A stretch of DNA of 64,000 nucleotides from Georgenia sp. TF02-10 (GTDB lineage: Bacteria; Actinomycetota; Actinomycetes; Actinomycetales; Actinomycetaceae): NCBI RefSeq assembly GCF_022759505.1, contig NZ_CP094289.1:2356001-2420000 (forward strand), read 5' to 3'. How positions within the stretch are numbered: position 1 is the stretch's first letter; each line of letters opens with the position of its first letter. The position numbers and the translations under genes were made by a program. Below, in pieces: positions 5,877 through 53,583 of this stretch. A model generated the notes under the pieces. It saw only the letters and a list, made by a program, of their open reading frames with translations, made no database searches and was not told where the DNA came from.

Positions 5877-8800
5877 TCACCCGTAGAACAGGTCGTCCAC
5901 CACCGCCCGGGCCCGGCGGGCGGCGCGCAGGTAGTCCTCCTCCAGGTCCAGCCGGCCGCCGGGCGGGTAGCCGAGCAGCCGGGCCACCGGCTCGAGGTCG
6001 GCCGGGGCGTGCGGCAGGACGTCCGTCCGCTGCCCGGTGGTGCGCCCGGTGGCCAGCACGACGGCGTCCCGGACCCGGGCGGCCAGCGTCCAGGCCGCCG
6101 CGAGCCGCTCGGCCTCGGCGGCGGTGACCAGCCCGGCCTCGCGCAGCGCGGCCAGCGCGGCGGTGGTCGACGTCGTGCGCAGCGCGGGCACCGCCCCGGC
6201 GTGCCGGAGCTGGAGGAGCTGGACGGTCCACTCCACGTCGGCCAGCCCGCCCCGGCCGAGCTTCAGGTGCCGGGTGGGCGGCACCCCGCGGGGCAGCCGC
6301 TCGGCCTCCACCCGGGCCTTGACCCGCCGCAGCTCGCGCAGGTCGGCGGGCGCCAGCCCGCTGGCGGGGTAGCGCACCGGGTCCACCAGGGCGGCGAACC
6401 GCTCCCCCAGCCCGGCGTCCCCGGCCACCGGCCGGGCCCGGAGCAGCGCCTGGCGCTCCCACGGCTCGACCCACCGGTCGTAGTACTCGGCGTACGCGGC
6501 CAGCGTGCGGGTCAGCGGCCCGGACCGGCCCTCCGGCCGGAGGTCGGCGTCCACGGCCAGGGACGGCTCGGGGCCGGTGCCGCCGAGCAGGCCGAGCACC
6601 CGGGTGGCCACGGCGACGGCGACCCGGGTGGCGGTCTCCGGGTCCGCGCCGGGCACCGGGTCGTGCACGAAGAGCACGTCGGCGTCGGAGGCGTAGCCCA
6701 TCTCGGCGCCGCCGAGCCGGCCCATGGCCACCACCAGGTACCGGGACGGGGGCTCGGCCAGGCCGGCGTCGGCCGTCGCGTCGGCGACCGCCACCCGCAG
6801 GGCGCCGGCGACGGCGACCTCGGCGCCGGCGGTGACCAGCGGCGTGCCGGTCCCCACCCCGTGGAGGACGTCCGCCAGCGCCGCCCGGGTGAGCTCGCGG
6901 CGGCGCAGGTACCGGGTGGCCTGCGCTCCGCCGGTCGGCTCGTCCCGGCGGGCCAGCAGCGCCGCCAGCTCGGCGTCCAGCGCCGGGCGGGCCGGGCCGG
7001 CGAGCTCGCCGTCGTCGTCCAGCCAGGCCACGGCCTCGGGCAGCCGGGCGAGCGCGTCGGCGGCGTAGCGGGAGGCGGCGAGCACGTGCGCCAGCCGCTC
7101 GGCGGCGACGCCGGAGTCGCGGAGCAGCTTCAGGTACCAGTGGGTGGTGCCCATGGTCTCGGAGAGCCGGCGGAAGCTGAGCAGCGCCGCGTCGGGCTGG
7201 GCGCCGTCGGCGAACCAGCCGAGCATGACCGGCAGCAGGTGCCGCTGGATCGCCGCGCGGCGGGAGACCCCCTCGGTCAGGGCGGCGATGTGCCGCAGCG
7301 CCCCGGCCGGGTCGCGGTAGCCGATGGCGGCCAGCCGGGCCCGGGCGGCGTCGGGGGCGAGGGAGACGTCGGCGGCGGAGAGCCGGGCGGTCAGCGGCAG
7401 CAGCGGGCGGTAGAAGATCTCCTCGTGCAGGTCGCGGACCTCCCGGCGCACCTGCCGCCAGCGCTCCTCCAGCGCGGCCGCGCCGTCCACCCCGTCGGCG
7501 TGCAGGCCCCGGCCGAGCCGGCGCAGGTCCTCCTCGGCGGTGGGCACCAGGTGGGAGCGGCGCAGCCGGTAGAGCTGGATCCGGTGCTCGAGCAGCCGGA
7601 GGAAGCGGTAGTGGTGGCCCAGGGCGTCGGCGTCGTCGCGGGCGACGTACCCGCCGGCGGCGAGCTCGGCCAGGGCGTCGAGGGTGGCGGCGGAGCGGAC
7701 GGTGGGCTCGGTGCGGCCGTGCACGAGCTGGAGGAGCTGGACGGTGAACTCCACGTCCCGCAGGCCGCCGCGGCCGAGCTTGAGCTGGCGCTCGGCGTCG
7801 GCGGCGGGCAGGTGCGCCTCCACCCGGCGGCGCATCGCCTGGGCGTCCTCGACGAAGTGCTCCCGCTCCACCGCCGTCCACACCAGCGGCGCCAGCTGGT
7901 CGCGGTAGGCCGCGCCCAGGGCCAGGTCCCCGGCGACCGGGCGGGCCTTGAGCAGGGCCTGGAACTCCCAGGTCTTGGCCCACCGCCGGTAGTAGGCCAG
8001 GTGCGAGGCGAGCGTGCGGACGAGCGGGCCGTCCTTGCCCTCCGGGCGCAGGTTGGCGTCCAGCGGCCACAGCGCCGGCTCCGGGCCGGGGGCGGAGCAG
8101 ACCTTCGCCAGCGCGGCGGCGAGCCGGGTGCCGGTGGCCAGCGCCTGCGCCTCGGCGGCGCCCGGGGCGGGCTCGGCGACGTAGACGACGTCGACGTCGG
8201 AGATGTAGTTGAGCTCGCGCCCGCCGGTCTTGCCCATGGCCAGCACCGCCAGGCGCACCTCCTCGGCGCCGCCCAGGTCGGCACGGGCGACGGCGAGGGC
8301 GGCGTCGAGCGCGGCGGCGACGATGTCGGCGAGGGCGGCGGCCACCAGGGGCAGGTCGGCCAGCGGGTCCGGGCTGGTCAGGTCCGCGGCGGCGATCTCC
8401 AGCAGCCGGTCGCGGTAGGTGCGGCGCACCGCGGCGGTGCCCTCGGCGCCGGCCAGCCCGGCGACCGGGACGTCCGCCGCGGGGTCGGCGCCGACGGCGC
8501 GCAGCGCCCGGTCCCGCTCGTCCGCCTCGGTCAGGTCCAGCACGGCGGGCTCGCCCGGGCGGTCGGCGAGCAGCGCCACCGCCGCGGGGCGGGCGACGAG
8601 CAGGTCCCCCAGCGCCGTGCTGGCGCCGAGGACGGCGAGCAGGCGCCGGCGGTGCGGGCCGTCCGCGGCAAGGACCGCCGCCAGGCCCGGGCCCTGCCCG
8701 GCGGCCTGGGCGGACTCGGCGAGGCGGAGCAGGGCGAGCAGGGCCAGGTCCGGGTCGGCGGTGGCGCCGAGCGCCTCGGCCAGCGGGGCGCCGGCCGCGT

Positions 8801-50617: not shown

Positions 50618-51028
50618 TCACGGCGGCCAGGCCCGGAAGGATCGAGGACACACGTCGTAGACCACGAGTCGTCGGTCCACCCCGCTGGCGACCTGCTCGA
50701 TATGGGTCCGGTTCGAGGTGGCGACGGCATCGTTGCGGCGTAGCGCTCCCTCGGCAACAGCAAGGTCAACGGTGTCCGCCAGGCCCGACCGGGCAGCGAG
50801 CACTCCAACCGCTCGCGCTCGAGTTTCGGTCAGCGGTTCTATGACGCAGCCCTTGAGCAGTCGGGAGAGTTGCGGTTGGGGGCCGCCACGCCACGCCTCG
50901 CCAAGAGCCCCGGCGGGGACAGTTGGCGGCAGACCTCGTGCTAGCGCGGCGCGATGCAGCGACCACAGCAGGCGGTCGCTGCGTTCGGCGGCGATCAACG
51001 CGCCAGTCTCGTACGTCAGCCCAGCCAT
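50618..51028 (-). CDS. PIN-domain toxin (VapC-like)
   Basis: 136 residues. The N-terminus LTYETGALIAAERSDR matches the PIN start, where the usual first Asp (L-D-T-G-A) is replaced by Glu. Later acids are in LADTVDLAVAEGALRRNDAV, followed by ATSNRTHIEQ, so the metal site is otherwise present. ATG 51028 shares its A with the antitoxin stop (TGATG). PIN toxins cleave RNA; activity here depends on whether Glu substitutes for Asp. Confidence 0.85.
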   Translation of the reverse strand: MAGLTYETGALIAAERSDRLLWSLHRAALARGLPPTVPAGALGEAWRGGPQPQLSRLLKGCVIEPLTETRARAVGVLAARSGLADTVDLAVAEGALRRNDAVATSNRTHIEQVASGVDRRLVVYDVCPRSFRAWPP

Positions 51029-51285
51029 CAGCCGGGCAACGTCTCGCTCGGGCCGGACAGCAGCCGGTCCAGCAGGAGCTCACCAGCGGCACGCTCCTCT
51101 GCTGTCAGCGGTCCGGCCTCGGCCTCCCACTCGGCCACGCCGCGCAGACCCTCACGCAGCAGCAGCTGACGCTCGGCCGCGAGCGACAGCCACGCGGAGA
51201 AGGAGATCCCGTCCTCACGGGCGGCGTGGTCGACTCGCTCGGCCACCTGGTCGTCGAGCGAGACGGATCGCTTCGTGACCCTCAT
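51028..51285 (-). CDS. Ribbon-helix-helix antitoxin (CopG-like)
   Basis: 85 residues. MRVTKRSVSLDDQVAERVDH is the beta strand and first helix; GISFSAWLSLAAERQLLLRE is the second helix. The acidic C-terminal tail (GPLTAEERAAGELLLDRLL) would bind the toxin. Gene order and 1-bp overlap are those of a VapBC-type operon. The palindrome TGGTAATACCA (51293-51303) just upstream is the likely autoregulatory operator. Confidence 0.88.
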   Translation of the reverse strand: MRVTKRSVSLDDQVAERVDHAAREDGISFSAWLSLAAERQLLLREGLRGVAEWEAEAGPLTAEERAAGELLLDRLLSGPSETLPG

Positions 51286-51303: not shown

Positions 51304-51590
51304 CCGGTGCTACCCCGGCTGCCTCGCGGGTCGGCCTTCTCGCCGGGCACAATCGGCGCGCTGTCTCGAGGACATGCAGCGTGAGCACGACGGGGGGTAG
51401 TCCTCGGCCTCGACGACGACCGAGAGGCCCTGCGCAGGACGTACGCATGACTGCCTCCGCCCGTCCGTCGGACGTCGTCGCGCGCTCGCCGCCTCGGGGG
51501 CTCGGTCACTCCGCCACTCCGCCCGGTAGCTGCCGTCCGCGGCTCGCACAGCGCCGACCGCGGCTCGGCCGCGATGTCGGTGGCCGGTCC

Positions 51591-51768
51591 TATCGTCGAT
51601 GACATGGACGGGCAGGACCAGCACGACGCCGCCGACGGCGGCAGTGCGGCGGCGATGTCAGTGGTCGGTCCTACCGTCGGGGACATGGACGGGCAGCCCC
51701 AGCACAACGACACCGCCGCCGACGGCGGCCGGGCGGCGATGTCAGTGGTCGGTCCTACCGTCGGGGGT
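51591..51768 (+). promoter_or_regulatory. Triplicated leaderless promoter/start of the HNH-DUF222 gene
   Basis: Three tandem copies (spacing 81 and 84 bp) of a block reading GGTCCTA(T/C)CGTCG...ATGGACG. Each has a -10 box (TATCGT 51591, TACCGT 51672, TACCGT 51756) exactly 7 nt before an in-frame ATG (51604, 51685, 51769). The interval 51304-51590 before it holds no gene that I can support. Confidence 0.7.
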
Positions 51769-53583
51769 ATGGACGGTGAGGGCGCGGAGGTGACCGGGGA
51801 GGGTTCGCCGGTCTCGGTCCGGGTGGTCAACGACGCCGCCGTGGGCATGTTCGTGGCGGTGACGGTGCTGTGGTCCGCGGTCGCCACCGCCGAGGCCCGG
51901 CTGGCGATGGAGATGGCCGAGGAGGTCGGCGCCGCGCTCGCCGCTGCCGGCGTGGCCGACCCCGCGGAAGCGCAGATCACCGCTGCCCCCGCCGGCGATG
52001 AGGTTCCGGCTCCCGCCAGCGATCAGGTTCCGTCCCCCACCCCCACCGGTGATGACGTCCCGGCCCCCGCCTCCGCCGGCGACGAGGCCGGTGGGCGAGA
52101 GCCGGCGGTGCAGGCCGCCCAGGCCGGCGAGGGACAGTACGCCCATACCGCCGCGGGGAAGAGCGCGCCGGCCGCCGGGCAGGACGACGCAGACGCAAAC
52201 GCAAACGCCGACGGCGACGGCGCTGATGACGCTGACGGCGGCGACGGTGCTGGTGCCGGTGGTGCTGGGTCTTCGGTGCGGGGGGTGTTCTCGGCGGCGG
52301 CGGTGGCGTTGGAGCGGACCGTTCCCGGGCCTGGGCTGGCTCGGACGCTGGCCGGGGCGAGCCTGGCCGATGCGGATGACGCCACGGTGGTGGAGATGAT
52401 CGCCGGGTGGGAGCGGCTGGCCGCCTGGGTGACCTCCCAGCAGGCAAGGGCGGTGGCCGAGCTGCACGCCCGCCGCAACCGGGGCCGGCCGGGCAGCAGC
52501 ATCAGGCACCGGGGCGTGGTCTTCGAGGTGGAGGCCCGCCTGCACACCACCCAGTACGCCGCCGAGTCCAAGGTCGGCCTGGCCCTGACCCTGGAGAGCT
52601 TCCCGGCCGTGGCCGACGCCCTCACCCGCGGTGAGATCGACGCGCGCAAGGCCGAGGTGCTCTGCACCGCCGAGCCCGGCCTGCCCGACGCCGACCGCCG
52701 CCAGGTCCACCGCCGGGTGCTGCCCGGCGCCGGGGACATGACCGCCCCTCAGCTGCGTGAGGAGATCCGCCGGGCCGCGCTGGAGGCCGACGTCGCCGCC
52801 GCCGAGCGGCGGCACCAGGCGGCCTACGCCAAGCGCCGGGTGATGGTCGAGCCGGCCGATGACACCATGAGCTGGGTCAGCGCCTACCTGCGCGCGGACA
52901 ACGCCGAGGTGGTCCGGGTGGCCCTGGACGCCCTCGCCGCGGCCGCCAAGGCCCCCGGGGAGACTCGCACCCTGGACCAGCGCCGCGCCGACGCCCTCAC
53001 CGACGTCTTCACCGGCATTCTCAACACCGGCACCAGCCCCGCCGGCATCCCCCTGCCCACCCAGCACGGCCGCCGCCCACACCTGCAGGTCACCGTCGCC
53101 GCCGGCACCCTCCTCGGCCTGGACGACCAGGTCGCCGAGCTCGCCGGGTACGGGCCCATCCCGGCCGACCTGGCCCGGCAGATCGCCCAGGACGCCACCT
53201 GGCGGGCGCTGTTCACCGACGCCGCCACCGGGGAGTTCCTCGCCCTGGGCACCAAGACCTACCGGCCCGGGGCGGACCTGACCCGCACCATCATCGCCCG
53301 CGACGTGACCTGTACCTTCACCGGCTGCCGGATCCCGGCCGGGCGCTGCCAGATCGACCACATCATCGCCTTCAACCATGCGATGGCGGACCTGCTCGAG
53401 CAGACCACGAGGGAGAACCTCCACGCCGGTTGCACCGGCCACCACGAGGCCAAGACCTCCGGGGGGTGGTCCGTCTCCCGCGACCCCACCACCGGCGTCA
53501 TCACCTGGACCGCCCCCACCGGCCACCGCTACCCCCGCCAGCCCGTCCGGCCCCCCGGCCCCTGGCGCAACCAGCCTCACTAG
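51604..53583 (+). CDS. DUF222 and HNH endonuclease domain protein (13E12 family-like)
   Basis: 659 residues from ATG 51604; ATG 51685 and 51769 are equally well-placed starts (see the triplicated promoter). The region to about residue 210 is Ala/Asp/Pro-rich low complexity. DUF222 follows (about 220-450: MIAGWERLAAWVTSQQARAV, RGEIDARKAEVLCTAEPGLP). The C-terminal HNH domain has CTFTGCRIPAGRCQIDHIIA, FNHA and NLHAGCTGHHEAKTSGGWSV with the zinc cysteines and catalytic His. Members are abundant in actinobacteria; the biological role is unclear. Confidence 0.9.
   Translation: MDGQDQHDAADGGSAAAMSVVGPTVGDMDGQPQHNDTAADGGRAAMSVVGPTVGGMDGEGAEVTGEGSPVSVRVVNDAAVGMFVAVTVLWSAVATAEARLAMEMAEEVGAALAAAGVADPAEAQITAAPAGDEVPAPASDQVPSPTPTGDDVPAPASAGDEAGGREPAVQAAQAGEGQYAHTAAGKSAPAAGQDDADANANADGDGADDADGGDGAGAGGAGSSVRGVFSAAAVALERTVPGPGLARTLAGASLADADDATVVEMIAGWERLAAWVTSQQARAVAELHARRNRGRPGSSIRHRGVVFEVEARLHTTQYAAESKVGLALTLESFPAVADALTRGEIDARKAEVLCTAEPGLPDADRRQVHRRVLPGAGDMTAPQLREEIRRAALEADVAAAERRHQAAYAKRRVMVEPADDTMSWVSAYLRADNAEVVRVALDALAAAAKAPGETRTLDQRRADALTDVFTGILNTGTSPAGIPLPTQHGRRPHLQVTVAAGTLLGLDDQVAELAGYGPIPADLARQIAQDATWRALFTDAATGEFLALGTKTYRPGADLTRTIIARDVTCTFTGCRIPAGRCQIDHIIAFNHAMADLLEQTTRENLHAGCTGHHEAKTSGGWSVSRDPTTGVITWTAPTGHRYPRQPVRPPGPWRNQPH

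Follow-up and report, generated by a model that had tools for sequence, protein, structure and literature searches.

PafBC-type damage promoters, earlier called RecA-NDp (PMC8223512; PMC6789036), have been described in mycobacteria and other Actinobacteria (PMC8151990; PMC6789036; PMC8223512), and the accessible part of one report gives the M. tuberculosis motif as TGTCGG or TGTCAG-N10-TA-N3-T (PMC8151990). Mycobacterial leaderless genes are a second point of reference. They carry TANNNT about one helical turn before the ATG and no Shine-Dalgarno sequence (PMC3898074; PMC4633059, as far as the accessible text goes); the -10 motifs of M. tuberculosis have their centres 7-12 bp upstream of starts (PMC3898074), and for leaderless translation mycobacteria need no more than a 5'-terminal ATG or GTG (PMC4633059). 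Moreover, a gene-internal promoter of Shigella virF yields a leaderless mRNA and from it an N-terminally shorter form of VirF, which acts as a negative autoregulator (PMC5101355, accessible part).

The locus considered here lies in a window of 64,000 nucleotides, the whole stretch of DNA that was analysed, from Georgenia sp. TF02-10 (contig NZ_CP094289.1, positions 2,356,001 to 2,420,000 of the forward strand), where a gene for a DUF222 protein contains three tandem promoter units at its beginning. DUF222 (PF02720) is a domain of unknown function in Pfam, and the genes that carry it are also known as 13E12-type HNH genes. The protein encoded here shares the DUF222 domain with that group and differs from it in lacking a Pfam HNH match and in having an N-terminus that is partly in-frame promoter DNA. 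Compared with the PafBC promoters, the units show the same motif and spacing, the same class of target genes, and a genome that likewise encodes PafC and a PafB-like protein; here, however, two to four copies follow one another, most of them inside the reading frame, and each has its own start codon, whereas the accessible portions of those reports make no mention of tandem copies (PMC8151990; PMC6789036; PMC8223512). Unlike the mycobacterial leaderless genes, a single gene here has several successive predicted leaderless starts. The shorter protein forms proposed below would arise as in VirF, although that case involves a single internal promoter, and neither a tandem repeat nor DNA-damage control is mentioned in the accessible text (PMC5101355). 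The explanation we favour, and hold to be probable, is that the locus is a tandem array of three PafBC-type damage promoters at the 5' end of the DUF222 gene, each with its own leaderless start, which adds promoter dose and nested N-termini.

Three promoter units at the 5' end of a DUF222 gene

The three units are arranged head to tail in window 51575-51771, with ATGs at 51604, 51685 and 51769, that is, 81 and 84 bp from ATG to ATG. The features are as follows.

51552..51776, + strand: whole tandem array (Tandem Repeats Finder: period 84, 2.7 copies, 81% matches, score 290)
51575..51606, + strand: copy 1, motif score 30.7 bits; ATG 51604-51606 is the predicted start of the 659-aa form
51656..51687, + strand: copy 2, motif score 33.6; ATG 51685-51687 is the predicted start of the 632-aa form
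51740..51771, + strand: copy 3, motif score 33.6; ATG 51769-51771 is the predicted start of the 604-aa form
51604..53583, + strand: coding sequence, first of the predicted leaderless starts through the stop codon
52435..53304, + strand: DUF222 domain, Pfam PF02720 (1.9e-28)

Copy 1 consists of the -35-like element TGTCGGTG (51575-51582), N8, the -10 box TATCGT (51591-51596), 7 nt and the ATG at 51604; copy 2 of TGTCAGTG (51656-51663), N8, TACCGT (51672-51677), 7 nt and the ATG at 51685; and copy 3 of TGTCAGTG (51740-51747), N8, TACCGT (51756-51761), 7 nt and the ATG at 51769. The sequence itself, the motif scan and Tandem Repeats Finder thus confirm what the first-pass annotation had described, namely three tandem 81/84-bp copies in each of which exactly 7 nt separate a -10 box from an in-frame ATG. 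What was duplicated seems to be a unit of some 25 bp 5' of the -35 element, followed by the promoter, its ATG and roughly 30 bp of coding sequence.

The leaderless geometry proposed in that annotation is supported as well. The gap from TANNNT to ATG is 7 nt in all three copies, and none of the strings AGGAG, GGAGG, GAGGT, AGGA, GGAG and GAGG occurs in the 20-nt stretches that precede these ATGs; in copies 2 and 3 a run of G directly precedes the ATG. The gap, seen in the sequence alone, is consistent with the range given for M. tuberculosis in the accessible part of PMC3898074. A further ATG at 51574 also has none of the six Shine-Dalgarno-like strings in its preceding 20 nt, and translation from it is unlikely because it lies inside the -35 element and has no Shine-Dalgarno sequence. 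All three unit ATGs share the frame of the DUF222 ORF, a layout that agrees with the earlier suggestion of three N-terminal lengths, and the stretches between them, linkers and promoters alike, translate as MDGQDQHDAADGGSAAAMSVVGPTVGD and MDGQPQHNDTAADGGRAAMSVVGPTVGG.

The region of the protein ahead of DUF222 is long and of low complexity. No HNH domain was matched in Pfam up to E 5, and the C-terminus shows an HNH-like D-H...N...H-H pattern by eye only; NCBIfam returned no family for this protein at E 0.001. Upstream of the array, a divergent gene pair (window 50618-51285, - strand) is possibly a toxin-antitoxin pair, one member being a small ribbon-helix-helix-like protein (RHH_1, E 0.0017, below the cut-off) and the other a protein of 136 aa that has the look of a PIN-type toxin by eye and no Pfam match.

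The motif and its genome-wide context

As to the identity of the promoter, the first-pass annotation was right about the -10 box but overlooked the TGTC(A/G)GTG element of the PafBC/RecA-NDp type. This element stands 8 nt 5' of the -10 box in each copy and marks the unit as a PafBC/RecA-NDp-type damage promoter; all three copies match the PafBC consensus, which is that of M. tuberculosis, exactly (PMC8151990, accessible part). The complete motif TGTC(A/G)GTG-N8-TANNNT has 28 exact sites in the 4.09-Mb genome against none for the reversed pattern, which is more than chance, and on these grounds we rejected the idea that the units are chance -10 boxes. An ATG or GTG follows 6-7 nt 3' of the -10 box at 24 of the 28 sites, the exceptions being recA, whose start lies 88 nt further on, a uvrD-type gene with its ATG 9 nt away, and two more sites, C1:426698 and C1:98720.

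Single motif sites precede the repair genes for RecA, a UvrD helicase and a PDDEXK_1 nuclease (RecB-like), as well as those for a metallophosphoesterase with an SbcD-like look and an RNase_T exonuclease that also matches GIY-YIG, though below the cut-off. The other proteins among the nine scanned behind non-DUF222 sites were a DNA methylase, a patatin, a TfoX_N protein and one without a match. The genome encodes PafC (HTH_PafC, 129.9 bits; domains HTH_PafC+WYL+WCX), and the adjoining WYL+WCX protein, which matched no PafB-specific model, is putatively PafB-like, as assigned by position and domains. In the family, the motif, taken singly, occurs in 49 of 61 sampled genomes, often at few sites and sometimes at no more than the control; hence the high number of sites found here is not general to the family.

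The activator itself deserves caution. For the same promoter motif, recognition by a ClgR/ClpR-like protein has been put forward (PMC5656591, accessible part), which makes PafBC the probable rather than the certain activator. Moreover, five putative HNH endonuclease genes of M. tuberculosis are induced by mitomycin in a RecA-dependent manner (PMC8151990, accessible part), which suggests LexA as the regulator of at least some genes of this kind.

Similar arrays in other DUF222 genes of the genome

The first-pass annotation saw the array in this gene but missed a like arrangement in eight more DUF222 genes of the same genome. The 24 DUF222 matches merge to 18 genes, nine of which carry 2-4 promoter+ATG units: eight when scored with a matrix built from the genome's own sites (score >= 6, ATG/GTG required 5-8 nt downstream), and a ninth (R) whose three units are split by an insertion; over all 18, the number of units per gene ranges from 0 to 4.

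This gene: 3 units, exact motif copies
C1:1395843 (sister gene P): 4 units, exact motif copies
C1:419568 (Q): 3 units, exact motif copies
C1:1222704 (R): 3 units with an insertion between units 2 and 3; units 1-2 exact
C1:2958597: 3 units, by matrix
C1:1837561: 3 units, one weak, by matrix
C1:3193265: 2 units, by matrix
C1:698246: 2 units, by matrix
C1:2770801: 2 units, by matrix

Four arrays are thus made of exact motifs (this gene, P, Q and units 1-2 of R), while the remaining five, found with the looser matrix only, have mismatches in the -35 element or CANNNT replacing TANNNT and, judged from these changes, may be decaying or inactive. The insertion in R (locus L079, C1:1218000-1230000) includes an IS110-family transposase (6215-7519 of that locus, + strand; PF01548 + PF02371). 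The element adjoins the -35 of unit 3, parting it from units 1-2, and this -35 reads CGTCAGTG instead of TGTC(A/G)GTG.

Arrays and tandem sites in other genomes

A search of genome contigs for related loci returned two. The locus of Georgenia sp. EYE_87 (48% identity) has one degenerate copy before the ATG (TGTCGGAC-N8-TACGGT), and no motif copy was found at the related locus of a Bifidobacteriaceae MAG.

For a wider comparison, the DUF222 genes of eight relatives were used, a non-random sample in that these genomes were chosen because most of them had many motif sites. Seven of these family genomes gave 86 rows, merged to 72 distinct DUF222 matches, and the eighth (G129) gave none; 67 of the 72 loci were scanned, five fragments near contig ends or short being left out, and five scanned loci (L088, L098, L099, L126 and L129) have little upstream sequence. 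When no ATG was required, two or more sites were present in 8/18 of the genome's own DUF222 genes vs 4/67 of those of the relatives at cut-offs 14 and 18 (Fisher p=0.00027), and in 6/18 vs 3/67 at cut-off 20 (p=0.0023). A matrix derived only from seven non-DUF222 sites gave p values of 0.00027, 0.0041 and 0.062 at cut-offs 14, 18 and 20, respectively. With the ATG required, at cut-off 10, two or more units occurred in none of the 67 relatives' genes vs eight own genes. Hence, tandem promoters alone are not unique to this genome, given that four of the 67 relatives' genes have tandem sites with no leaderless ATG.

The exact motif occurring twice was sought at three gap ranges in overlapping samples of genomes. 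With a gap of 50-80 it was found in 1/213 family genomes (the own genome only) and in 3/394 class genomes (own, G447 and G253); with a gap of 95-125, in 2/119 relatives (own and G139) and in 4/394 class genomes (own, G366, G386 and G351); and with a gap of 100-130, in 5/396 order genomes (own, G138, G139, G668 and G717).

Three other genera (g27, g207 and g126) have DUF222 genes with a tandem motif and a leader, the domain being assigned by HMM and the leaders by eye. Their spacings are 149, 143, 152, 100, 123, 132, 133 and 134, and two of these eight pairs (L102 and L107) have no TA in the -10 box. Leaderless pairs or triplets were found in genome G668, in two near-identical genes that are cut by contig ends, so that DUF222 is not checkable there. 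The spacings are 122 in one gene and 119 + 122 in the other, and in all three intervals the stop codon of an upstream ORF of 40-41 aa is a TGA sharing bases with the next ATG (ATGA).

Tandem copies also occur in other settings. In G351, DUF222 genes (L188, L190 and L192; HMM-confirmed for L188 and L190) stand behind two and three leadered tandem copies, L190 and L192 overlapping the same place, and the units further upstream look as though they contain a ribosome-binding site together with an ATG; these copies are probably an independent expansion. In genus g90 (G447, G253, G366 and G386), 2-4 tandem motif copies at L034, L035, L186, L187, L189, L193 and L195 sit in a different GC-rich repeat that often reads like GGTGGCCCACCCGGCCGGGAGGGGTGG. 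No DUF222 was found among ten ORFs scanned there (L034, L035, L186, L187, L189 and L193), and this is possibly a dispersed repeat carrying a damage promoter.

Reading frame, spacing and conservation of the units

In the arrays of this genome, 12 of the 14 scorable non-last ATGs are in frame with DUF222 (binomial vs 1/3, p=8e-5), R being left out of the scoring and both out-of-frame cases belonging to Q. The count is 10/12 at a matrix score of at least 14 (p=5e-4) and 5/7 for exact arrays only (p=0.045); these p-values overstate the significance, because intervals within gene families (paralogs) are not independent. The in-frame arrays show seven distinct start-to-start spacings (78, 81, 84, 87, 123, 132 and 153), all multiples of three, and spacing by threes is found in 2/8 of the leadered tandem copies elsewhere vs 12/14 here (Fisher p=0.008).

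In Q (array at C1:420933-421244, - strand; L009), neither of the two upstream ATGs is in frame; they open ORFs of 135 and 87 aa, which end past the third ATG and overlap the DUF222 start. Hence, upstream copies need not yield a longer protein, and the arrangement suggests that in Q it may be the presence of the promoter itself, through activator recruitment or transcription through the locus, that is kept.

Comparison of Q with R allows cores and linkers to be told apart. The 32-nt cores differ at 3 positions (Q1-R1), 1 (Q2-R2), 3 (Q1-Q2) and 1 (R1-R2), whereas the linkers differ, in gapped alignment, at 20/108, 36/112, 33/111 and 26/107 positions (19-32%). The upstream promoters thus seem to be conserved as promoters. 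In the third copies, where R unit 3 borders the insertion, the core differs at 3/32 positions and the following 113 coding nt have 3 differences, so the core is not better conserved there. Copies of this gene and of P differ at 0-5/34 positions in the core and at 1-11 of 44-50 in the linker, copies 1 and 2 of this gene having 5/34 core and 4/44 linker mismatches. These copies are too recent for conservation to tell, and in this gene they are so similar that divergence cannot show selection; no one-to-one pairing is seen between the inner copies of this gene and those of P, which suggests turnover after the two genes diverged.

These observations bear on the possibility that only the last copy (ATG 51769) matters and that the two upstream copies are leftovers of duplication, drifting in a tolerant N-terminus with little effect on expression. 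Such an origin would fit the recent, nearly identical copies of this gene, the low complexity of the stretch N-terminal to DUF222, the finding of 0 or 1 site in 63 of the 67 scanned DUF222 genes of the relatives, and the upstream copies of Q, which cannot make the protein in frame. It is, however, at odds with the presence of arrays in nine DUF222 genes of one genome, with upstream cores in Q and R that stay intact while their linkers diverge, and with indels between copies that come in threes (81 and 84 here; 84, 87 and 78 in the paralog). The TGA/ATG overlaps of G668 also argue against it, as another way to keep upstream transcripts translatable. We therefore regard it as unlikely, if still a serious competitor.

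Far less credible is a repeat selected as protein, for instance an N-terminal tag or degron, whose resemblance to a promoter would be incidental. The units of this gene are in frame and their linkers have a coding-like base composition (GC of 0.53-0.56 at position 2 and 0.94-1.0 at position 3), while the 150 nt upstream of the array show no codon periodicity in base composition. However, the same DNA motif is translated in two frames depending on the family, as MSVVGPTVGGM here and as DVGGGGYVRGM in Q and R, which indicates that the recurring thing is a DNA element, not a peptide. Upstream of leadered DUF222 genes and of recA the motif is untranslated, and the Q and R peptides between copies 1 and 2, with 16 nonsynonymous and 5 synonymous codon differences (ungapped), give no sign of purifying selection. 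On account of the differing frames and the untranslated occurrences, we reject this interpretation as highly improbable.

Discussion

Returning to the tandem array of damage promoters, we propose that transcription of the gene is probably switched on at three points and that three lengths of protein are made. Following DNA damage, PafBC would become active and bring RNA polymerase to all of the copies. Every transcript would start at its ATG, or right beside it, and its translation would need no ribosome-binding site. Transcripts from the upstream copies would pass the downstream promoters as protein-coding sequence, because the copies are spaced by multiples of three. The outcome would be more promoter dose together with nested forms of 659, 632 and 604 aa, which would differ solely in the low-complexity tail ahead of a common DUF222 body. 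Motif, regulon context, geometry, frame and recurrence are observed directly; from them we infer PafBC binding, the start at the ATG, the isoforms and the added dose as the benefit.

The first-pass annotation also held that copy number could vary by slippage, as a device of phase or dose control. Phase variation driven by slippage was not supported: copies 81-87 bp long that carry substitutions do not make up a short simple repeat. In its broader form, the idea is that slippage or recombination switches copy number, which would then act as a dial of phase or dose among cells or strains. The paralogs do have three vs four copies, the inner ones lacking one-to-one counterparts, and the DUF222 genes of this genome range from none to four units, a contrast seen solely between paralogs within one genome. 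However, given the length of the units and the substitutions in them, their turnover is probably slow, and we consider such a dial improbable.

A more general scheme can be put forward only tentatively, as possible but less likely than the array itself. Promoter and start codon might form one duplicable cassette that multiplies head to tail in DUF222 genes of this lineage and is kept translatable by spacing in threes (in this genome) or by ATGA overlap (in G668), so that promoter DNA would become coding and yet still promote, with stepwise heritable control of the dose of the damage response and of N-terminal length.

Each ingredient is known already: promoters of this type, leaderless expression, control of HNH-type genes by DNA damage, and leaderless starts inside a gene, as in VirF. 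What appears to be new, as read from the DNA, is that half of the DUF222 genes in one genome stack 2-4 predicted leaderless damage promoters, most of them in frame; tandem leaderless damage promoters were not found in the literature on PafBC, leaderless genes, DUF222/HNH and tandem promoters, among the matches listed. If the proposal is true, leaderless genes allow promoters to be stacked inside a reading frame, each cassette with its own start, and promoter dose and protein N-terminus change together as promoter DNA turns into protein sequence. This raises testable questions, namely how much each copy contributes, whether the nested forms exist, and why DUF222 genes collect damage promoters. 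Nine arrays in one genome also offer a natural series for distinguishing additive from cooperative activation.

Finally, several MFE-type DUF222 starts (e.g., L020, L021, L024 and L025) read ...ACATGTTCGA. This string resembles half of an actinobacterial SOS box, and joint control by LexA is possible.
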